This document shows, piece by piece, positions 12,408 through 50,231 of a DNA stretch of 64,000 bases. A program made the translations under genes and the position numbers. Each line of letters starts with the position of its first letter. The stretch's first letter is position 1. Under the pieces are notes generated by a model that did no database searches, was not told where the DNA came from, and saw only the letters and a list, made by a program, of their open reading frames with translations. The stretch is from Iodidimonas sp. SYSU 1G8 (GTDB taxonomy: Bacteria; Pseudomonadota; Alphaproteobacteria; SMXS01). The stretch covers positions 186,001 through 250,000 of the forward strand of contig NZ_JBBYXJ010000002.1 in NCBI RefSeq assembly GCF_039655775.1, in the 5' to 3' direction.

Positions 12408-12998
12408 TCAGGCCTCGATGATGTCGCGGTGCCTCAGGAAAGCCAACAGCGGCAGCAAAGGCAAGCCCAGGATGGAAAAGAAGTCACCATCGACACGCTC
12501 GAACAGATGCGCGCCCCGCCCTTCCAGCTGATACGCCCCGACACTGAGCAGCGCATCGTCGCCGATCGCGGCCAGATAGGTGTCAATGAAGCGGTCGCTG
12601 AAGTCGCGCATGGTCAGAACCGGCCGTTCGGTATGCCGCCATAGGACAGTGCCGTCCTGGACAATGACCGCGGCGGTGCACAGATGGTGTGTTCGCCCGC
12701 GCAACCGTGCGAGGTGGCCGCGTGCTTCATCGAGATCGCGCGGCTTGTCGAAGAGGTCGGGGCCGCACACCAGCATCTGGTCGGCGCCGATGACCGCCGC
12801 GCCCCGATGGGTGGCTGAAATGGCCTGGGCTTTGATCTCGGCGAGACACTGGGCGATGTCCAACGGGTCCTCGCCGTTCATCGCCTCTTTCGTGGCGGCC
12901 TCATCGGCATGGGCGGGAATGATGTCGAAGTCGAGGCCGGCGGCGCGCAGCATGGTCGCGCGCACGCGGCTCGCCGACGCCAGGATCAGCCGGGTCAT
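12408..12998 (-). CDS. Maf-like nucleoside triphosphate pyrophosphatase
   Basis: A 196-residue Maf/HAM1-fold house-cleaning enzyme that hydrolyses non-canonical or modified NTPs to NMPs. The N-terminal LILASASRVRATML motif and GADQMLVC site are characteristic; the GAYQLEGRGAHLFERVDGDFFSILGLPL C-terminal block is a variant of the Maf G-x-Y-x-I-E-G motif, shown here by its key residues G, Y, E and G. It overlaps ppsR by 4 bases. It belongs to the conserved set left of the hemE-type origin. Confidence 0.93.
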   Translation of the reverse strand: MTRLILASASRVRATMLRAAGLDFDIIPAHADEAATKEAMNGEDPLDIAQCLAEIKAQAISATHRGAAVIGADQMLVCGPDLFDKPRDLDEARGHLARLRGRTHHLCTAAVIVQDGTVLWRHTERPVLTMRDFSDRFIDTYLAAIGDDALLSVGAYQLEGRGAHLFERVDGDFFSILGLPLLPLLAFLRHRDIIEA

Positions 12999-13819
12999 GA
13001 CGCCGCCAGCTCTTCCTGACGGCGCTGATAGAGGTTGTAGATCGCCGCCGCGGTTTCCTCGATCGAGCGCCGGGTGACGTCGATGATCGGCCAGCCGCGC
13101 TTGAGATACATGCGCCGCGCGTTGGTGATTTCCTCGGCAACGGCCTCGGGATCCGCATAGGCGGTATCCTCCAGATCGGACAGCGCCCGCATGCGGGTGC
13201 GCCGGATGTGGACGAGCCGGTCCGGCGACAGGGTGAGCGCGACGATCAGCGGTTTCTTGAGGCCATCCAGTTCGGCGGGCAAGGGAATGCCTGGAACAAC
13301 GGGTACGTTGGCCACCTTCAGTCCGCGATTGGCCAGATAGATCCCCGTCGGCGTCTTCGACGTCCGCGAGACACCCAGCAGGATGATATCAGCCTGATGC
13401 AGGTCGTCGGTCCGCAGCCCGTCATCATGGGCCATGGTGAAGCTCATGGCCTCGATCCGGCCGAAATATTCCGCGTTCATCTCATGTTGCTGGCCAGGAC
13501 GGCCGAGGCTTTCGGCGCCGAGATAGCGGCCGAAGGCATCCATCACCGGATCGAGCACGGCAATGGAGAGAATGCCCAGATTGCGGCAGCCTTCCTCCAG
13601 CTGGTCGCGCAGGCCGCGATCGACCAGGGTGAACATGACCAGACCGGGTGTACGCTGAATGGCCGACAGGACCAGTTCCATCTGTTTGGGTGTGCGGACC
13701 ATGGAGTGAAAATGCTCCATGGCATCGAACCCCTCAAACTGGACCAATGCGGCCTTCACCACCGAACTGAGGGTTTCGCCGGTCGCGTCGGATACCAGAT
13801 GGAGATGAAAGCGCTGCAT
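12995..13819 (-). CDS. ppsR: PEP synthetase regulatory protein (kinase/pyrophosphorylase, DUF299)
   Basis: Bifunctional serine/threonine kinase and Pi-dependent pyrophosphorylase that switches pyruvate,water dikinase or PPDK off and on. The 274-residue protein starts with LHLVSDATGETL and has the P-loop GVSRTSKT at 149-156. It is the first gene left of the origin. A parS site ends 7 bases upstream of its ATG, so ParB bound there could cover its translation start region or promoter. Its exact target enzyme is not in this window. Confidence 0.94.
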   Translation of the reverse strand: MQRFHLHLVSDATGETLSSVVKAALVQFEGFDAMEHFHSMVRTPKQMELVLSAIQRTPGLVMFTLVDRGLRDQLEEGCRNLGILSIAVLDPVMDAFGRYLGAESLGRPGQQHEMNAEYFGRIEAMSFTMAHDDGLRTDDLHQADIILLGVSRTSKTPTGIYLANRGLKVANVPVVPGIPLPAELDGLKKPLIVALTLSPDRLVHIRRTRMRALSDLEDTAYADPEAVAEEITNARRMYLKRGWPIIDVTRRSIEETAAAIYNLYQRRQEELAAS

Positions 13820-14198
13820 GTGACTCGTTTCACGTGAAACCTGTGGGCGAACTGTGCATAACCCGTCCCGCTTGGCAACCCGGCCTGTTTACGCAGAGTT
13901 AGCGGGGACAAGCGGAGCCGGTTGTGAATCCGTTGAACTGAATCGAAAAAGCCCCTGTGGATAAGTGGGACAAACAGTTGTCGGACATTTTTTATCCCCA
14001 CGTTTCTCACCGCTCAAAACCAGGGTGAGTCAGGCTTTGCGCGACTTATCCACAATCGGAGATTGATGGCTTTGGGGAAATCCCACGAGGCTGGCCATCT
14101 GGAGGACAAGTGGTGTATGAACACGTTCTCCCCATGATTCACAGGGATTCACTACCTCTACATCCCTTTAATCAATTCAGACTTAAGGTAAGGGTGGT
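13820..14198. other. oriC: Probable chromosomal replication origin (hemE-type oriC)
   Basis: A 379-base intergenic stretch between ppsR and hemE, the position of Caulobacter-type origins. Exact DnaA boxes TTATCCACA are at 14046-14054 (+) and 13956-13964 (-), with TTATGCACA at 13853-13861 (-), and one-mismatch boxes at 13992-14000 and 14135-14143. A T-rich run is at 13988-13995. A parS site marks the left edge. The maf-aroE-coaE-dnaQ-secB side and the hemE-rho side match conserved origin synteny. No TTAA-N7-TTAA CtrA site is seen. Confidence 0.82.
13827..13840. other. parS: parS centromere-like site at the origin edge
   Basis: The perfect palindrome GTTTCACGTGAAAC, the core of the bacterial parS consensus bound by ParB. 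The outermost consensus bases (T and A) are C and C here, so it matches 14 of 16. It lies between the ppsR start codon and the first DnaA-box variant. Confidence 0.88.
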
Positions 14199-15248
14199 GT
14201 GACCAAAATCGTCTCCAACAAGCGCTTCATCCAGGCCCTGACGGATTATCCGGTGGACCGCCCCCCGTTCTGGTTCATGCGCCAGGCCGGACGATACCTG
14301 CCCGAGTACCGGCAGATCCGCTCGAAGGTCGGTGATTTCCTCGAGCTCTGCTACACGCCGGAAGCCGCCGCCGAAGTGACGCTGCAGCCGATCCGGCGCT
14401 ATGGCATGGATGCCGCCATCCTGTTCGCCGATATCCTGCTGATCCCCGACGCGCTAGGTCAGAAGCTGGAATACCGCGAGGGTGAGGGCCCTGTGCTGGA
14501 TCCGATCCGGGACGGGGCCGCCGTGGCGGCGCTGACCCTGGACAAGATCGACGACAGGCTGGCCCCGGTCTACGAAACCGTCGAACGGGTGGCCGGCGCG
14601 TTGCCGGAGGAGACCGCCCTGATCGGTTTCGCGGGGTCGCCCTGGACCGTCGCCACCTACATGGTGGAAGGCCACGCCACGAAGGAGTTCCAGGAGCCCC
14701 GCCTCTGGGCGCTGCGTGATCCGCAAGGCTTCAGCGCCCTGATCGACGTACTGACGGAGGCGACGATCCACTATCTCGGTCGGCAGATCGAAGCTGGCGC
14801 CCATGCGGTGCAACTGTTCGACAGCTGGGCCGGTGTTTTGTCGGACGATCAGTTCTCGCGCTGGTGCACCGGGCCGACACGGACCATCGTGGGGCGGCTA
14901 AAGCGCCGTTTCCCCGACGTTCCCGTGATCGGCTTTCCGCGCGGCGCCGGCGTCAAGACGGCCGATTACGCGGCCGCGACGGGTGTGGACTGCGTCGGGC
15001 TCGATACCAGCATGCCGCCGCGCTGGGCGGCGCGGAGCCTGCAAGGCACGGTGGCGGTACAGGGCAATCTGGACCCGCTCGCGGTGGTCGCTGGCGGCAG
15101 GGCCATGGAAGGCCAGGCAAGGGAAATTCTGAAGGCCCTGTCCTATGGGCCTTTTGTTTTCAATCTAGGCCATGGCATTGTACCGCAGACGCCGCCCGAA
15201 CATGTGGCGGCGCTATCGGACCTGTTGCGGAACTGGCAGGGCGAATAA
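14199..15248 (+). CDS. hemE: Uroporphyrinogen decarboxylase HemE
   Basis: Decarboxylates uroporphyrinogen III to coproporphyrinogen III in haem synthesis. The 349-residue protein has the N-terminal signature RPPFWFMRQAGRYLPEYR, the catalytic FADIL aspartate region and the GFAGSPWT motif. It uses a GTG start preceded by an AAGG-type site. The gene borders the origin. Unlike many relatives, hemH does not follow: the next gene is hemJ. Confidence 0.97.
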   Translation: MTKIVSNKRFIQALTDYPVDRPPFWFMRQAGRYLPEYRQIRSKVGDFLELCYTPEAAAEVTLQPIRRYGMDAAILFADILLIPDALGQKLEYREGEGPVLDPIRDGAAVAALTLDKIDDRLAPVYETVERVAGALPEETALIGFAGSPWTVATYMVEGHATKEFQEPRLWALRDPQGFSALIDVLTEATIHYLGRQIEAGAHAVQLFDSWAGVLSDDQFSRWCTGPTRTIVGRLKRRFPDVPVIGFPRGAGVKTADYAAATGVDCVGLDTSMPPRWAARSLQGTVAVQGNLDPLAVVAGGRAMEGQAREILKALSYGPFVFNLGHGIVPQTPPEHVAALSDLLRNWQGE

Positions 15249-24481: not shown

Positions 24482-24501
24482 GGTGTTTCACGTGAAACAC
24501 C
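24482..24501. other. parS: parS site between mnmE and mnmG
   Basis: A 20-base perfect palindrome, GGTGTTTCACGTGAAACACC, containing the full 16-base parS consensus TGTTTCACGTGAAACA (24484-24499). It lies 12 bases after the mnmE stop, about 10.6 kb from the origin-edge parS. Confidence 0.95.
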
Positions 24502-26458: not shown

Positions 26459-27078
26459 TCGCATTCTATGACGATGGCAGCTTCCACCAGGCCACCGGTG
26501 TTTCACGTGAAACATTAGATAAGCTTCGGGCTTACGCGGCTCTCCTCGAAAAATGGCAGCGTTCCATCAATCTCGTGTCCTCCGCCACGCTCCCTGAGCT
26601 CTGGCGCAGGCATTTCGCCGACTCCGCCCAGCTGGCGCCGTTGATCGGCACGGAAACGAGCACTCTTCGCTGCGTAGACCTTGGCAGCGGCGCGGGCTTT
26701 CCGGGTCTCGTTCTGGCGATCATGGGGATCGGCCAATGGACATTGATCGACAGTGATCGCCGCAAGCTGACATTCCTTCAGGAAGCCGCCCGCATCACGC
26801 GGACATCTGTTACATTGCTTCCTGCCCGGCTCGAACAGGTGACGGGCTTGACGGCGGATATCGTCACGGCGCGCGCGTGTGCGTCTCTCGAGACCCTGCT
26901 GGGCTATGCCACGCCCTTATTGGAGCCGTCGGGAAAGGCGCTTTTTCTCAAGGGTCGTGATGCAGCCCGCGAGATCGATGAGGCCAGGAAGACGTGGAAT
27001 TTCGAGGTTCGGCGCATTCCGAGCCAGACCGATCCGGAAGCGAGTATCGTGGAAATACGCAATGTCTCAAGTACTTAG
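26455..27078 (+). CDS. rsmG: 16S rRNA (guanine(527)-N7)-methyltransferase RsmG
   Basis: Methylates G527 in the 530 loop of 16S rRNA. The 207-residue protein has the SAM-binding motif [16 protein letters not shown] (about 76-91) and the NLVS segment before it. It uses a GTG start overlapping the mnmG stop (GTGA). A parS site lies inside the coding sequence and spells the residues VSRET at about 16-20. The gene overlaps parA by 17 bases, so it is coupled to the partition genes. Confidence 0.96.
26499..26514. other. parS: parS site embedded in the rsmG coding sequence
   Basis: An exact 16-base parS consensus, TGTTTCACGTGAAACA, within rsmG. In the rsmG frame it encodes V-S-R-E-T. It is 548 bases upstream of the parA start and 2 kb from the parS between mnmE and mnmG. 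Confidence 0.95.
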
Positions 27079-27925
27079 CCTCGGACGCGATGTGAAGAGA
27101 TCCCGCGGCGGGGCAGGCCGAATCATCGCCGTCGCCAATCAGAAAGGCGGCGTGGGCAAGACGACGACCACAATCAACCTGGCGACCGCGCTTGCCGCGA
27201 CCCGCAAGTCCGTTCTGGTGATCGATCTCGATCCGCAAGGTAACGCCAGTACAGGTCTGGGCGTCCCACGTTCGGCGCGGACCGTCAGTATCTACGATGT
27301 GCTGATGCGCGACCATGATCTCGGTTCCGCGCTGATCGACACCGCGATCCCCAAATTGCGGCTGATCGCGTCCACCGTCGATCTCGCCGGCGCCGAGCTC
27401 GAGCTGGTATCGGCGGAAGAGAGGGCGGAACGGCTGCGCCAAGCGCTGCGCAATCCCGAGTCGGGTGAGGTTCTCGAGGCGTTCGATTACGTGCTGATCG
27501 ATTCGCCGCCGTCGCTCGGGCTTCTCACGCTGAACGCCCTGGTGGCCGCCGATTCCGTCCTGGTGCCGCTGCAATGTGAGTTCTTCGCGCTCGAAGGACT
27601 GAGCATGCTCATGAAAACCGTCGAACGCGTGCGCGGCGCGTTCAACCCCGATCTGAGGATGGAGGGCGTGGTGCTGACCATGTTCGATCGGCGCAATCGC
27701 CTGTCGGGGCAAGTGGAGGAAGATGTGCGTTCTTTCATGGGTGATACGGTGTTCAACACGGTCATTCCGCGCAATGTGCGCTTGTCGGAGGCGCCCAGCC
27801 ACGGCAAACCGGCGCTTGTTTACGATATGCGCTGTCCCGGCAGCATGGCCTATATCAAGCTGGCTTCCGAACTTCTCAAACGCGAAAAGAAGCAGAAAGC
27901 CGCGTTAAACCAAGGGGTTGAATGA
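27062..27925 (+). CDS. parA: Chromosome partitioning ATPase ParA (Soj)
   Basis: Walker-type ATPase that moves ParB-parS complexes along the nucleoid. The 287-residue protein has the deviant Walker A KGGVGKTTTTIN, the VIDLDPQGNAST motif and VLIDSPPSLGLLT. The start at 27062 (MSQVLSLG) lies within the end of rsmG; the reading frame is open much further upstream through rsmG, which is not coding. There is no N-terminal DNA-binding domain, as expected for a chromosomal Soj-type protein. Its stop overlaps parB by 4 bases. Confidence 0.97.
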   Translation: MSQVLSLGRDVKRSRGGAGRIIAVANQKGGVGKTTTTINLATALAATRKSVLVIDLDPQGNASTGLGVPRSARTVSIYDVLMRDHDLGSALIDTAIPKLRLIASTVDLAGAELELVSAEERAERLRQALRNPESGEVLEAFDYVLIDSPPSLGLLTLNALVAADSVLVPLQCEFFALEGLSMLMKTVERVRGAFNPDLRMEGVVLTMFDRRNRLSGQVEEDVRSFMGDTVFNTVIPRNVRLSEAPSHGKPALVYDMRCPGSMAYIKLASELLKREKKQKAALNQGVE

Positions 27926-43708: not shown

Positions 43709-46093
43709 TCAGCCGCTGTGATCGCCGATGAGCACCTCGCGCTTGCCCACATGGTTCGCGCCGCTGACCACGCCTTCCTTTTCCATGCGTTCGATGATGC
43801 GGGCGGCCCGGTTGTATCCGATCTGCAGATGGCGCTGCACGAAGCTGGTCGACGCCTTGCCCTCGCGCGCCACCAGCGCGACCGCCTGATCATACAGCTG
43901 GTCCTCGCTGCCGCCCTCGCCGCCGCCGCCGGCCATGTCCAAAATGGTCTCGAACCCGCCTTCCGGCTCCTCCGTGACGCTGGTCATGTAATCGGGCGCG
44001 CCCTGCGCCTTCAGGAAGCGGACCACATCCTCGACCTCGCCATCGGTGACGAACGGGCCGTGGACGCGGGTGACCTTGCCGCCCGCCGCCATGTAGAGCA
44101 TGTCGCCCTTGCCCAGCAGCTGCTCGGCGCCCTGCTCGCCCAAAATGGTGCGGCTGTCGATCTTGGAGGTCACCTGGAAGCTGATCCGTGTGGGGAAGTT
44201 CGCCTTGATGGTGCCGGTGATGACGTCGACCGAGGGTCGCTGCGTCGCCATGATCAGGTGAATGCCGGCGGCGCGAGCCATCTGCGCCAGCCGCTGGATC
44301 GAGCCTTCCACATCCTTGCCGGCGACCATCATAAGATCGGCCATCTCATCGACGATGATGACGATCAGCGGCAGACGCGTCAGCTCCAGCGGCTGGTCCT
44401 CGTAGACCGGGCGGCCGGTTTCCGGGTCGAAGCCGGTCTGCACCGTGCGCGCGAGCTGCTCGCCCTTGTTCAGCGCTTCCACGACGCGGTCGTTATAGGC
44501 GGCCAGATTGCGCACGCCGAGCTTCGACATGGCCTTGTAGCGGTCTTCCATCTCGCGCACGGCCCATTTCAGGGCCACCACGGCCTTGCGCGGATCGGTC
44601 ACCACCGGCGTCAGCAGGTGGGGAATGTCGTCATAGACCGACAGCTCCAGCATCTTCGGGTCGATCATGATGAAACGGCATTCCTGCGGCGGCAGTTTGT
44701 ACAGCAGCGACAGGATCATGGTATTGATGCCGACCGACTTGCCCGAGCCGGTCGTGCCCGCGATCAGCAGATGCGGCATCGCCGCCAGGTCGGCGACGAC
44801 CGGCGTGCCACCGATATCCTTGCCCAGCACCATGGGCAGGCGTGCCTTCGACTTGTCGTAGGAAGTATCGCCGAGCAATTCCCGCAGCAACACGGTTTCC
44901 CGGCTGGCGTTGGGCAATTCGATGCCGATGGCGTTGCGGCCGGGAACCACGGCGACGCGTGCCGAAATGGCGCTCATGGATCGGGCGATGTCGTCGGCAA
45001 GGCCGATGACGCGCGACGATTTGGTGCCGGGCGCCGGCTCAAGTTCGTACAGGGTCACCACCGGACCGGGGCGAACCTGGATGATCTTGCCCTGGACGCC
45101 GAAATCGTCGAGCACGGTCTCGAGCAGCCGGGCGTTCTGCTCGAGCGCCTCTTCGTTGATCCGTGTCGTCTTGTGCGCGGGCGTGGGTTCTTCCAGCAGC
45201 GCCAGCGGCGGCAGGCTGAACGTGGACGAGCCGGGCATGAACTCCAGTGTCGGCTGCTTTTCTTCCTCGGCCCGACGGCTTTCCTTGGCTTTTTTCGGCT
45301 CGCGCTGGACGATGGTCGGCTTGTCGCGCACCGGCGGAGCGTCGTCGGTCTCGTGCGTCTCCGGCACCTCGGCAGCCTGACGCTTCAGGCGCGGCGCGGC
45401 GCGTTCCCGGGGCGCGTCGGCGACCGGATCGGGCTCCCACGCGGGCTCCCGCTCGTCGCTCTCGGCCCTGGCGCGCAGGACGTAGCCAATGGGCGCATAC
45501 AGGAAGCGGCCCACATTGCGCCAGTGACGGATGCTGAAGCCCATGGTCGGCAGCAACACCATCATCGCCAGAACCCCAAGCACCAGGCCGGGAATGAACG
45601 ACGGGACGAAGGAGGGCAGCACCGATCCCAGCAGGCTGTCATGCAGCAGCCGGCCCATCATCCCGCCTGGCCCCGCTTGCAGCGGCCATTCAAGCGCCGG
45701 CGCGATGGCCGTGGCGGCGAAGGCGGCCAGCACCAGGCACAGCGGCAGCAGGGCCAGATAGAACCATATGGAGCGAAGGCCTTGGTGCGTCATGATCCGC
45801 CAGCCCCAGCCCAGCAGCGCCAGGGCGATGGCGTAGCCCGCCAAGCCAACGGCCTGAATCAGCAGATCGGCGATCCATGCGCCCGCGCCGCCCATCCAGT
45901 TGGTGGCGATCGCGTCCGTTTCCGTGTTCAGGCTCGGGTCGGCGGGATTGAAACTGAACAGGGCCAGCGCGAAGACCACCGCCAGTCCGATGACGGCCAA
46001 GCCGCCCAGCTCGATCAGCCGGCGCTGCATGAAGGCGACGAAGGCCGCCGGCAGAAACGAGCTGCGCGTCGACGCGGTGCTTGTCCGTGCCAT
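43709..46093 (-). CDS. ftsK: DNA translocase FtsK
   Basis: Septal DNA pump that clears chromosome ends and activates XerCD at dif. The 794-residue protein has four N-terminal transmembrane helices (about 20-175), a short proline/charged linker, the RecA-like motor with GTTGSGKSVGINTM (Walker A) and VIIVDEMADLM (Walker B), and the C-terminal winged-helix gamma domain LYDQAVALVAREGKAS that reads KOPS. Its ATG shares a base with the stop of the aminotransferase gene. Confidence 0.97.
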   Translation of the reverse strand: MARTSTASTRSSFLPAAFVAFMQRRLIELGGLAVIGLAVVFALALFSFNPADPSLNTETDAIATNWMGGAGAWIADLLIQAVGLAGYAIALALLGWGWRIMTHQGLRSIWFYLALLPLCLVLAAFAATAIAPALEWPLQAGPGGMMGRLLHDSLLGSVLPSFVPSFIPGLVLGVLAMMVLLPTMGFSIRHWRNVGRFLYAPIGYVLRARAESDEREPAWEPDPVADAPRERAAPRLKRQAAEVPETHETDDAPPVRDKPTIVQREPKKAKESRRAEEEKQPTLEFMPGSSTFSLPPLALLEEPTPAHKTTRINEEALEQNARLLETVLDDFGVQGKIIQVRPGPVVTLYELEPAPGTKSSRVIGLADDIARSMSAISARVAVVPGRNAIGIELPNASRETVLLRELLGDTSYDKSKARLPMVLGKDIGGTPVVADLAAMPHLLIAGTTGSGKSVGINTMILSLLYKLPPQECRFIMIDPKMLELSVYDDIPHLLTPVVTDPRKAVVALKWAVREMEDRYKAMSKLGVRNLAAYNDRVVEALNKGEQLARTVQTGFDPETGRPVYEDQPLELTRLPLIVIIVDEMADLMMVAGKDVEGSIQRLAQMARAAGIHLIMATQRPSVDVITGTIKANFPTRISFQVTSKIDSRTILGEQGAEQLLGKGDMLYMAAGGKVTRVHGPFVTDGEVEDVVRFLKAQGAPDYMTSVTEEPEGGFETILDMAGGGGEGGSEDQLYDQAVALVAREGKASTSFVQRHLQIGYNRAARIIERMEKEGVVSGANHVGKREVLIGDHSG

Positions 46094-47313
46094 CAGGGTG
46101 TCCCGCCTTCCAGCGTGTCGCGGATGCTATGCAGGGCCAGTTCCGTAACCTCCAGCGAATTCACCAGGGCGACCCGGATATAGGCCGCGCCGGGATTATA
46201 ACCCGAAGCATCGGGCCGCGCCAAATATGCTCCGGGCAGCACGCGCACGCCGGCCTTGCCCCACAAGTCGCGGCAGGCCGCCTCGCCGTCGCCGACATCG
46301 AGCCACAGATAGAAACCGCCGCCGGGCCGGTAGGCGCCGAAGCGGCCCTCGAGAATCCGCTCGGCGGCATCGAACTTGGCCCGGTAGAGGACGCGGTTTT
46401 CCTCCACATGCGCCTCGTCGCTCCACGCGGCGGCGGCGGCGGCATAAACCGGCAGCGGCGACGGCGCGCCCGCGTAGGAGCGCAGCTCGCGGTAGGCGGC
46501 GATCAGCCGCGGATCACCGGCGACGAAGCCCGAGCGCAGGCCCGGCACGTTCGATCGCTTGGACAAGGATTGGAAACTCAGCACGTTCGCATAGGGATCC
46601 GCGGGATCCCCCAGGCCGCGGCGCGCCATGCTCAGGCAGGCCTCCAGCGCGCCGACCGGCGGCGCGTCCGGGTAAATCTCGCCGTAGCATTCGTCCACCA
46701 CCAGGGTGATGTCGTGTGCGCGGCACAGGCCGATGACCGAGTCGAAATAGGCCTGATCGGCGACGGTGCCCTGCGGATTGGCGGGCGTGCACAGGTAGAT
46801 CAGCGCCGTTCGTGCCAGCACGGCCGGATCGAGACCGGCGAAATCCGGCAGGAACCCGGTGGAAGCGGTGGCCGGCACGTAGAACGGCTCGGCGCCGGCC
46901 GCCAGCGCGGCGGCGGCATAGCACTGGTAGAACGGGTTGGGCATCAGCACCAGCGGGCGCTGGCCGCTCTTGCTGTCCGGTATGGCGATGAAGGCGACGT
47001 TGAACAGACCCTCGCGCGTGCCCGAGACCGGCAGAACATGCTGGTCCGGATCCATCGCGGGCAGACCGTAGCGCCGCTCCAGCCATCCGGCGACCGCCTG
47101 CTGCCAGGCGGGCGTGCCCTGGATCGGCGGATATTTGGCGTATCCGACGCTGTTGGCTTCCAGCACCTCGTTGATGAAGGCTGGCATGGGATGGCGCGGC
47201 TCGCCGATGGTCAGGTCGAGCGGCGCGTTGCGGCCGGCCGGCACCTTGTCGAGCAGGGCGCGCAGCTGGGTCCATGTATGGGCGGGAAGTTGCTGGAAAC
47301 GGGGATTGAGCAC
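46093..47313 (-). CDS. Class I/II aminotransferase, DapC-like (N-succinyldiaminopimelate)
   Basis: A 406-residue fold-type I PLP enzyme. The PLP lysine is in SFQSLSKRSNVPGLRSGF; nucleotide of PLP contacts are in TPANPQGTV and VVDECYGEIY. The N-terminus MLNPRFQQLPAHTWTQLR and TIGEPRHPMP resemble proteobacterial succinyldiaminopimelate transaminase (DapC), which would place it in lysine and peptidoglycan synthesis. Related LL-DAP or aspartate aminotransferases remain possible. Coupled to ftsK by one base. Confidence 0.87.
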   Translation of the reverse strand: MLNPRFQQLPAHTWTQLRALLDKVPAGRNAPLDLTIGEPRHPMPAFINEVLEANSVGYAKYPPIQGTPAWQQAVAGWLERRYGLPAMDPDQHVLPVSGTREGLFNVAFIAIPDSKSGQRPLVLMPNPFYQCYAAAALAAGAEPFYVPATASTGFLPDFAGLDPAVLARTALIYLCTPANPQGTVADQAYFDSVIGLCRAHDITLVVDECYGEIYPDAPPVGALEACLSMARRGLGDPADPYANVLSFQSLSKRSNVPGLRSGFVAGDPRLIAAYRELRSYAGAPSPLPVYAAAAAAWSDEAHVEENRVLYRAKFDAAERILEGRFGAYRPGGGFYLWLDVGDGEAACRDLWGKAGVRVLPGAYLARPDASGYNPGAAYIRVALVNSLEVTELALHSIRDTLEGGTP

Positions 47314-47386
47314 CGGTCACCGGAACAAAAGAAAAACGCGCCGCACTGTACCGGGCGGCGCGTTGATCGACAAGGTGCAGCCTGTT

Positions 47387-48616
47387 CTACCGTCCCGTGA
47401 CGTCCTCCTCGGGCGTCGCGCCGATCTGGTGGATCGACAGGTCGGCGCCGCGGAACTCCTGTTCCTGGGTCAGCCGGATGCCGATGGTCGCCTTGATCGC
47501 GCCGTAAATGGCAAGGCCGGCGGCGAACGCGAACAGCGCGCCGCCGATGCTGCCGACCAGCTGGCTCATGACGCTCACGCCGCCCATGCCGCCCAGAGCG
47601 GTCTGACCGAAGATGCCGCAGGCGATGCCGCCCCACAGGCCGCACAGGCCATGCAGCGGCCAGACACCGAGCACGTCGTCGATCTTCCATTTGTTCTGGC
47701 ACCAGGTGAAGGCATAGACGAACAGCACGCCCGCCGCGCCGCCCACCGCCAGCGACCCCAGCGGATGCATGACGTTGGACCCGGCGCACACCGCCACCAG
47801 CCCGGCCAGCGCGCCATTATGGGCGAAGCCGGGATCGTTGCGGCCGACCAGCCACGAGGTCAGGATACCGCCGGCCATGGCCATCAGCGAATTGATCGCC
47901 ACCAGTCCGTTGATCGCGGCGACGCTCTGGGCGCTCATCACGTTGAAGCCGAACCAGCCGATGCACAGCAGCCACGAGCCCAGCGACAGGAACGGGATGT
48001 TCGACGGCGGGATGCCGACCACGGTGCCGTCCTTGCGATAGCGGCCATGGCGCGCGCCCAGCATGAGCACGGCGCCGAGCGCGACCCAGCCGCCGAAGGC
48101 GTGGACGACGACCGAACCGGCGAAATCGTTCATCTTCGCGCCGAACTGGGCCTCGAGAAACGTCTGAACGCCGTAGTTGCCGTTCCAGAACACGCCCTCC
48201 ACCAGCGGATAGGCGACGCCGACGATCACGGCGGTCGCCATCAGCTGCGGCGCGAAACGGGCGCGCTCGGCGATACCGCCCGAAATGATGGCGGGGATTG
48301 CGGCCGCGAAGGTCAGCAGGAAGAAGAACTTCACCAGATCATAGCCGTTGGCCGCGAAGGCCGAACCTGGCGCGGTCCCGGAGATGGTGGCGGCATCCTG
48401 CAGGAAGGACACGCCATAGGCGACACCATAACCGACGAAAAAATAGGCAATGGTCGACATGGCGAAATCGACCAGGATCTTCATCAGGCCGTTGACCTGG
48501 TTCTTCTTGCGCACGGTGCCGACTTCGAGAAACCCGAAACCCGCATGCATGGCAAAGACGAGGATGGCCCCCATCAGCACGAAAAAGACGTCAGCTTCCC
48601 GACCGGACGCGTCCAT
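47387..48616 (-). CDS. Ammonium transporter (Amt family)
   Basis: A 409-residue membrane channel with 11 predicted helices and no signal peptide. The N-terminus reads VFFVLMGAILVFAMHAGFGFLEVGTVRKKN. The twin pore histidines are in SVVVHAFGGWVALG and WPLHGLCGLWGG. It differs clearly from the second Amt at 48936-50231, so the two are paralogues, not a recent duplication. A sigma-54-type promoter lies 75 bases upstream, implying induction under nitrogen limitation. Confidence 0.95.
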   Translation of the reverse strand: MDASGREADVFFVLMGAILVFAMHAGFGFLEVGTVRKKNQVNGLMKILVDFAMSTIAYFFVGYGVAYGVSFLQDAATISGTAPGSAFAANGYDLVKFFFLLTFAAAIPAIISGGIAERARFAPQLMATAVIVGVAYPLVEGVFWNGNYGVQTFLEAQFGAKMNDFAGSVVVHAFGGWVALGAVLMLGARHGRYRKDGTVVGIPPSNIPFLSLGSWLLCIGWFGFNVMSAQSVAAINGLVAINSLMAMAGGILTSWLVGRNDPGFAHNGALAGLVAVCAGSNVMHPLGSLAVGGAAGVLFVYAFTWCQNKWKIDDVLGVWPLHGLCGLWGGIACGIFGQTALGGMGGVSVMSQLVGSIGGALFAFAAGLAIYGAIKATIGIRLTQEQEFRGADLSIHQIGATPEEDVTGR

Positions 48617-48690
48617 TTGCTCTCTCCCTTTTTCTCTCTCCCGCGATCAAAGCGTGAGCACGCCGACCGCATTGACGGCAAAAGGGAAAC

Positions 48691-48704
48691 CAAGAACCGT
48701 GCCA
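48691..48704 (-). promoter_or_regulatory. Sigma-54-type promoter of amt
   Basis: TGGCACGGTTCTTG on the minus strand, followed by G: the -24 GG and -12 region are exactly 10 bases apart. The -12 dinucleotide is GG instead of the usual GC. The same 14 bases occur upstream of glnK. It lies 75 bases before the amt start. Confidence 0.7.
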
Positions 48705-48796
48705 ATCGACGACAGCTTTGTCGATTTACAGGAAAATCAACAGGTTACGGGCGTCAGGACGTTGGCTGCGCCGCCGCTAAAGAACAGAGCGACTGC

Positions 48797-48848
48797 TTAA
48801 AAAACGAGCCGGGCCCGCCCGGAACGATTAAATTCTGGGCAGGCCCGG
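48797..48848 (-). terminator. Rho-independent terminator after amtB
   Basis: On the minus strand CCGGGCCTGCCC (48848-48837) and GGGCGGGCCCGG (48820-48809) form a 12-bp stem with one wobble-like mismatch and a 16-base loop, followed by CTCGTTTTTT. It separates the glnK-amtB operon from amt. The rest of the 319-base gap (48617-48935) holds the amt promoter and no gene. Confidence 0.75.
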
Positions 48849-48935
48849 TGGAGAGACCGGCTGGGAGGAGCCGGGGAGAGATCGTCGCGGAAGGGCCCGT
48901 CCGGGAGAGAGACGGCCGGGCCCCGCCCGCGATGA

Positions 48936-50231
48936 TTACTGCAGCGATTCGCCGTGCAGGCTGACGTCGAGGCCTTCGACCTCCTGTTCCTTCGTCACGC
49001 GGATGCCCATGACCATGTCGATGAGCTTGAGCAGGATGAAGGTGACGATGCCGCTCCACAGCACGGTGGCGACGATGCCCTCGAGCTGCTTGACGACCTG
49101 GCCGATGCTGCCGGCGGTACCGCCGATGGCTTCGACCGCGAACAGGCCGGTCAGCGCGGCGCCGACGATGCCGCCCACGCCGTGAACGCCCCAGACGTCC
49201 AGGCTGTCGTCATAGCCCAGCGCCTTCTTCAGGCTGGTGGCGGCGAAGAAGCAGATCACGCCGGAAGCCAGGCCGATGATCAACGCGCCCATCGGGCCGA
49301 CGAAACCGGAAGCCGGGGTGATGGCGACCAGACCGGCGACGGCGCCGGAGATGATGCCGAGCACGCTGGGCTTCTTGTGGACGATCCATTCGACGAACAT
49401 CCAGGCCAGCGCCGCGGCCGCGGTGGCGACCTGGGTGACCAGCATGGCCATGCCGGCACGGAAGTCGGCGGCGACGGCGGAACCGGCGTTGAAGCCGAAC
49501 CAGCCGACCCACAGCATGGACGCGCCGATCAGGGCGAGGGCCAGGTTGTACGGGGCCATGTTTTCCTGACGGTAGCCATGACGCTTGCCGAGGACGATAC
49601 AGGCGACCAGGCCGGCGATACCCGCGTTGATGTGAACGACGGTGCCGCCCGCGTAATCGAGGACGCCTTCACCGGCGAGGAAACCGCCGCCCCACACCCA
49701 GTGACAGACCGGCGCGTAGACGATCAGGCTCCACAGGGTCATGAACACCAGCATGGACGAGAACTTCATGCGGTCGGCGAACGCGCCGGTGATCAGGGCC
49801 GGGGTGATGATCGCGAAGGTCATCTGGAAGGTGATGAAGACGCTTTCCGGCACCGCATAGGACAGCGCGTCGAGCGTCAGATGGTTGAGAAACGCCTTGT
49901 CCAGGCCGCCCCAGAAGGCGTTGAGCCCGCCGCCGTCACCGAAGGCGATGCTGTAGCCGGCGACCATCCACACGATGGACATCACGCAGCAGATGGCGAA
50001 GCTCTGCATCAGCGTCGCGAGAATGTTCTTCTTGCGAACCATGCCGGCATAGAACAGGGCTAGGCCGGGGATCGTCATGAACAGGACCAGCGCGGTGGCG
50101 GTCAGCATCCATGCCGTGTCGCCCGCACTCAGGGTCGGCGGCGGCGCGTCCTGCGCGAAAGCAGGGACGGCGGCGGCGCAAAAGGCGGCGAGGACGGATC
50201 CTGCTGCCACAAGGGTCGATTTCATTCGCAT
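48936..50231 (-). CDS. amtB: Ammonium transporter AmtB
   Basis: A 431-residue ammonium channel with a signal peptide (core AAGSVLAAFCAAAVPAFA) and 11 transmembrane helices, the standard layout of proteobacterial AmtB. The FYAGMVRKKN loop, the first pore histidine in VCHWVWGGGFL and the second in DVWGVHGVGGIVG are present. It lies 26 bases downstream of glnK; GlnK blocks AmtB when nitrogen is plentiful. Confidence 0.97.
   Translation of the reverse strand: MRMKSTLVAAGSVLAAFCAAAVPAFAQDAPPPTLSAGDTAWMLTATALVLFMTIPGLALFYAGMVRKKNILATLMQSFAICCVMSIVWMVAGYSIAFGDGGGLNAFWGGLDKAFLNHLTLDALSYAVPESVFITFQMTFAIITPALITGAFADRMKFSSMLVFMTLWSLIVYAPVCHWVWGGGFLAGEGVLDYAGGTVVHINAGIAGLVACIVLGKRHGYRQENMAPYNLALALIGASMLWVGWFGFNAGSAVAADFRAGMAMLVTQVATAAAALAWMFVEWIVHKKPSVLGIISGAVAGLVAITPASGFVGPMGALIIGLASGVICFFAATSLKKALGYDDSLDVWGVHGVGGIVGAALTGLFAVEAIGGTAGSIGQVVKQLEGIVATVLWSGIVTFILLKLIDMVMGIRVTKEQEVEGLDVSLHGESLQ

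Follow-up and report, generated by a model that had tools for sequence, protein, structure and literature searches.

Does the short gap between the divergent genes ppsR and hemE of Iodidimonas sp. SYSU 1G8 serve as its chromosomal origin of replication, and how might DNA opening and initiation be controlled there? The gap has 379 bp (positions 13820 to 14198 of the window, i.e., the whole 64,000-nucleotide stretch that was analysed), and an original prediction made from the letters had called it a probable oriC. In Caulobacter, an origin between hemE and COG1806 (ppsR) is established, and the same location has been proposed for Rickettsia and others (PMC1914354). Because 47 of 52 further alphaproteobacterial genomes carry the same divergent pair (median gap, 429 bp), this location is in itself familiar and ordinary, and the Iodidimonas gap joins the known hemE-type oriCs. 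We put the probability that the gap is the oriC of a single chromosome at about 0.93, as the prediction agrees with the gene context, the DnaA-box cluster, the nearness of parS and parAB, and the location of the gap across the circle from dif and the KOPS/skew switch. The features discussed below are the following.

12995 to 13819, minus strand: ppsR, kinase/pyrophosphorylase (COG1806/DUF299), the "RP001"-type flank; Kinase-PPPase, Pfam PF03618, 299 bits; NF003742, 323 bits
13827 to 13840, unstranded: parS core GTTTCACGTGAAAC, exact palindrome at the edge of the putative origin
13853 to 13861, minus strand: DnaA box 1, TTATGCACA; 8 of 9 positions invariant in six congeners
13903 to 13911, minus strand: DnaA box 2, weak, TTGTCCCCG (TTATCCCCG in congeners); 8 of 9 invariant
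13956 to 13964, minus strand: DnaA box 3, exact TTATCCACA, in Iodidimonas sp. SYSU 1G8 only
13992 to 14000, plus strand: DnaA box 4, TTATCCCCA, one mismatch; 7 of 9 invariant
14046 to 14054, plus strand: DnaA box 5, exact TTATCCACA, degenerate in congeners
14126 to 14134, plus strand: tandem weak DnaA box A, TTCTCCCCA, of the unwinding-type module
14135 to 14143, plus strand: tandem weak DnaA box B, TGATTCACA, with a GANTC inside (14136 to 14140); 8 of 9 invariant in the genus
14144 to 14149, plus strand: spacer GGGATT (second GANTC, 14146 to 14150)
14150 to 14161, plus strand: triplet (DnaA-trio-like) array CAC-TAC-CTC-TAC, the complement being the strand that would be bound; a class-wide array, in the same place in held-out gaps
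14162 to 14187, plus strand: AT-rich stretch up to the hemE ribosome-binding site, probable start of melting; class-wide AT peak
14199 to 15248, plus strand: hemE (uroporphyrinogen decarboxylase); TIGR01464, 403 bits, cut-off 303
24485 to 24498, unstranded: second parS, just 5' of mnmG/gidA
26500 to 26513, unstranded: third parS, 5' end of rsmG/gidB
26879 to 27925, plus strand: parA; Pfam AAA_31, 200 bits, and CbiA, 105 bits
27922 to 28809, plus strand: parB; TIGR00180, 197 bits; ParB_N, HTH_ParB and ParB_C

Most of the parts named in the original prediction were recovered, namely, the flanking genes of a hemE-type origin, two exact TTATCCACA boxes on opposite strands, the T-rich run (T6 at 13988 to 13993) and the exact palindromic parS core at the gap edge. 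It had also listed TTATGCACA with two one-mismatch boxes; TTATGCACA is there, but TTATCCCCA is the single one-mismatch box besides it. Overlooked were the weak box TTGTCCCCG, the tandem weak boxes, the triplet array, the AT-rich stretch and six GANTC sites. The exact TTATCCACA occurs seven times in the 3,918,757-bp genome, and two of the seven copies fall inside the gap (Poisson p of about 2e-7 for at least two in 379 bp by chance). When a DnaA-box matrix derived from the hemE-ppsR gaps of other families was applied to about 1.64 Mb of sampled sequence (42% of the genome), the gap scored 80 to 102 and no other place more than 61; a better cluster in another place, which the prediction had said would count against it, did not appear in the scanned sequence. 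Gap GC is 0.51 versus about 0.65 in the sampled genome stretches, and A+T is thus above the genome average. An Rfam search of the gap matched neither a CcnA-like nor any other known RNA. The second-best box cluster of the sampled genome (score 61, about C1:2234700-2235000) consists of TTATCCACA, TTATCCACC and a weaker box, and immediately precedes a gene for an NrdJ-type ribonucleotide reductase with an apparent intein (residues about 270 to 600 match intein-bearing protein models).

Comparison with six species of the genus, the gaps of which measure 377 to 380 bp, showed box positions that are nearly fixed (about 33 [-], 83 [-], 172 [+] and 226 [+] bp into the gap), while the letters drift. 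Both perfect TTATCCACA boxes are peculiar to Iodidimonas sp. SYSU 1G8 and are not kept in the congeners. Conservation is highest not at these perfect boxes but in a 20-bp segment from 14135 onwards, where 17 of 20 positions are invariant (versus 28% over the whole gap); it covers TGATTCACA, the spacer GGGATT and the beginning of CACTACCTCTAC. Box strand polarity was 37:1 and then 45:10 in the first set, and replicated weakly in the held-out set (48 of 74 concordant, p of about 0.007), so that strict polarity is claimed for the genus only, and elsewhere as a tendency.

The conserved segment belongs to a module (14126 to 14187) made up, in this order, of tandem weak boxes, spacer, triplet array and AT-rich stretch. 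The triplet pattern was first seen in about 24 families and then tested on 47 held-out gaps. There, the strand with the longer maximal run of HAY triplets was the hemE-sense strand in 33 gaps and the opposite one in 2, and runs of at least four triplets were placed mostly at 75 to 89% of the gap. Against local shuffles, the array on the hemE-sense strand in that third of the gap gave, over the held-out set, a combined Fisher p of 2e-19, while other parts of the gap and the opposite strand were not significant. Boxes with at most two mismatches stood directly upstream of the array in 26 of 56 modules compared to 95 of 694 control positions (p 2e-8), and A+T peaked class-wide at 0.77 to 0.78 between +18 and +30 bp from the array start. 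A DNA hairpin in the AT-rich stretch, seen in the discovery set, did not hold in the held-out set (mean z of -0.61 versus -0.24) and was discarded.

These data make it probable that melting takes place next to hemE. A different reading, which we regard as unlikely, takes 14126 to 14187 as the promoter or leader of hemE, with GANTC sites serving GcrA/CcrM-dependent transcription. The block runs up to the start codon of hemE, Caulobacter promoters under GcrA/CcrM control work through GANTC sites (PMC3973325, PMC11514494) and AT-rich stretches mark promoters as well; a promoter, however, does not predict period-3 arrays on one strand, following a DnaA-box-like sequence, at 75 to 89% of the held-out gaps. 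Promoter and unwinding element may also overlap in this block. If the module does act in unwinding, it predicts precisely where the origins of Alphaproteobacteria would melt: at the hemE end, beside a conserved one-strand triplet array.

At the scale of the genome, the assembly has two contigs that share 99 bp, at the end of C2 and the start of C1; C1 and C2 are therefore one chromosome. KOPS-like GGGNAGGG octamers are divided 82:26 on one half of the genome versus 24:83 on the other, and the terminus switch of both KOPS and GC skew is sharp, near C1:700 kb. The dif core CATAATGTATATTATGTTAA, the sole zero-mismatch match in the genome, is found at this switch (C1:702555-702574), 2.10 Mb from the gap or 53.6% of the circle. 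On the origin side, polarity is mixed over about -140 to +220 kb from the gap, with best-fit origins at -59 to +400 kb for skew, +80 to +180 kb for KOPS and about +140 to +180 kb for coding strand. This blurred switch is consistent with the gap as origin without proving the exact place. The gap thus passes only weakly the refuting condition named in the original prediction, a skew minimum elsewhere: the switch is sharp at the terminus and blurred on the origin side. GC skew within the 64-kb window alone was uninformative, and the two halves of the genome could not be told apart by third-codon-position skew. Two local anomalies were also seen. To either side of the contig junction (C2:1576739-end and C1:1-20000), GC skew rises above +0.10, far more than in any other sampled stretch; a recent island or an rRNA region may lie there and may be the reason for the assembly break as well. 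Positions 46001 to 50000 of the window have an AT skew of +0.17 over 4 kb at normal GC content, unlike the remainder of the window.

Segregation genes are concentrated in the same area. The genome has three exact parS copies, all within 13 kb (13827, 24485 and 26500) and standing around mnmG-rsmG-parA-parB, with parAB 13 kb from the gap; a one-mismatch copy is located at C2:167815. A parS inside the gap was found in Iodidimonas sp. SYSU 1G8 and one congener (L006) only. These observations bear on whether the origin lies elsewhere, at dnaA (C2:83388, 116 kb left of the gap) or 80 to 180 kb to the right, the gap being a DnaA-regulated promoter region of hemE and ppsR. Such a displacement would suit the blurred skew and the best fits by KOPS and coding strand (+80 to +180 kb), and DnaA-box clusters can be promoters, the runner-up adjoining the NrdJ-type gene. 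We consider it very improbable all the same: the matrix scan covered C2:1-420,000 unbroken (-200 to +220 kb around the gap) and found no comparable box cluster, so there is no hidden rival where skew puts the origin, hemE/ppsR is a conserved origin setting and parS and parAB are located here.

With the gap taken as the origin, its control appears to differ from that of Caulobacter. The original prediction noted that a CtrA site of the TTAA-N7-TTAA type was missing, and none is present in the gap, the nearest arrangement being TTAA-N11-TTAA at 14168/14183. Its suggestion that initiation might be controlled differently is strengthened, since the CtrA gene is missing across the whole family. We used a Caulobacter CtrA sequence as probe, validated by its score of 410 bits against the CtrA equivalog model (whose cut-off is 350), and found no ortholog in any of 10 genomes of this bacterial family, which explains the lack of the site in the gap; the same probe found CtrA in 33 of 50 other alphaproteobacteria, at identities of 52 to 82% and mostly 60 to 82%. 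The CtrA model gives the best match in the Iodidimonas genome a score of 187, and this protein is a better fit to PmrA/PhoP. ChpT was not found in 9 of the 10 family genomes; it was full length and over the cut-off in one (G002), possibly on a stray contig. A diverged CtrA that escaped the search and binds TTAA half-sites near hemE is hardly credible: two congeners (L008 and L009) have TTAA-N7-TTAA there, but on the CtrA model the best hit in this genome stays at 187 versus 410 for the probe, the search recovers CtrA at 52 to 82% identity in 33 other genomes, and ChpT has gone as well in nine genomes. The TTAA-N7-TTAA sequences of L008 and L009 were rejected as CtrA sites, both genomes being without CtrA. 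Several near-complete alphaproteobacterial genomes (G035, G038, G043 and G044, among others) also lack a CtrA ortholog, and the loss thus probably happened more than once. With no CtrA in the family, CtrA cannot be the brake, and timing would have to rest on DnaA, possibly with GcrA/CcrM. GcrA is present in the Iodidimonas genome, and CcrM is full length (626 bits on NF050803, under the model cut-off of 830). The family would thus start replication with no CtrA brake, a loss backed by genome-wide searches in 10 genomes.

GANTC, the CcrM site, is concentrated in the module. Two of the sites in the gap are here, one inside box B (14136) and the other across the spacer and the first base of the triplets (14146). 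Within the 80 bp that surround the array, we counted 19 GANTC in the first set and 31 in the held-out set, versus 0 to 4 and 1 to 8, respectively, for seven palindromes of the same composition, an enrichment of about 7-fold in the held-out gaps. At least one GANTC was present in 22 of 35 held-out modules, and the difference between module and remainder of the gap gave a Fisher p of 5e-7. GANTC sites have been reported in Caulobacter Cori and close relatives (PMC3973325), and we found no report in the open-access literature of their concentration in an unwinding module. It is tempting, if rather doubtful, to see GANTC as built into the hemE-type opening module, where hemimethylation after fork passage would tune DnaA loading or melting and might be the main cell-cycle gate of initiation in lineages that lost CtrA, such as this family. 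Overexpression of CcrM leads to extra chromosomes (PMC3973325), and in Agrobacterium methylation acts on a second, RepC-driven origin (PMC11514494). Caulobacter genetics argues against methylation gating, as cells without CcrM control initiation normally (PMC3973325). The class-wide enrichment makes the link between CcrM and initiation testable at defined bases. Elsewhere in the genome, eight GANTC lie in 379 bp directly 5' of ccrM (C1:1325956-1327183; 361 amino acids, between rnhB-like and mutY-like open reading frames), the densest cluster in the sampled genome, which suggests methylation feedback on ccrM. Another intergenic region, upstream of uvrC (C2:1017160-1017540), has six GANTC and one of the seven exact TTATCCACA.

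DnaA binding, melting and control can be inferred as follows from what the sequence shows directly (the sites and how well they are conserved, the gene context, the polarity of the genome and the absence of CtrA). DnaA would occupy the boxes in two groups that face outward, with three minus-strand boxes at the ppsR side followed by two plus-strand boxes, and also the tandem weak boxes (14126 to 14143). From the latter, a DnaA filament would extend across the GGGATT spacer onto the triplet array and melt the AT-rich stretch beside hemE (14162 to 14187), where the replicative helicase would be loaded. Forks would proceed both ways to dif (C1:702555), and ParB on the adjacent parS would separate the copies. 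Timing would depend on DnaA itself, possibly with GcrA/CcrM acting via GANTC.

Among known systems, E. coli oriC has oppositely oriented groups of DnaA sites, and a site for an orphan adenine methylase is part of the origin. The gap is similar in its opposed DnaA-site groups and adenine-methylation sites; GANTC/CcrM is unrelated to Dam/SeqA. In Caulobacter, CcrM is not needed for control of initiation, a point of difference from the E. coli system (PMC3973325).

The module resembles the basal unwinding system (BUS), described in Bacillus subtilis and predicted in most bacterial origins, in its tandem DnaA-type boxes, short spacer, triplet array and AT-rich stretch (PMC8287927, PMC8235120). The BUS rule allows the DnaA box two mismatches at most and places it no farther than 16 bp from the trios; TGATTCACA, with two mismatches and 6 bp ahead of the array, agrees with this. 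The rule also asks for at least three consecutive NAN trios; unlike this, the complement of the array reads 3'-GAT GGA GAT GTA-5', with only two, nonconsecutive middle-A trios (3'-GAT-5'), and we therefore do not file the module as a BUS but only as one that would work like it. The class-wide arrays likewise differ from the BUS consensus, being (HAY)n on the hemE strand with a different base constant.

The closest relatives of the gap are the hemE-type origins themselves. Unlike Caulobacter Cori, the gap has no CtrA sites and the genome no CtrA gene; the gap also carries strong consensus DnaA boxes in contrast to the Caulobacter G- and W-boxes (PMC4468827) and has a parS inside its edge. It shares with Cori and other hemE-COG1806 origins the DnaA boxes and A+T above that of the genome (PMC1914354), with Cori and close relatives GANTC sites (PMC3973325), and with the Caulobacter crescentus Cori and Rickettsia RP001 origins the same flanks in the same divergent arrangement (PMC1914354).
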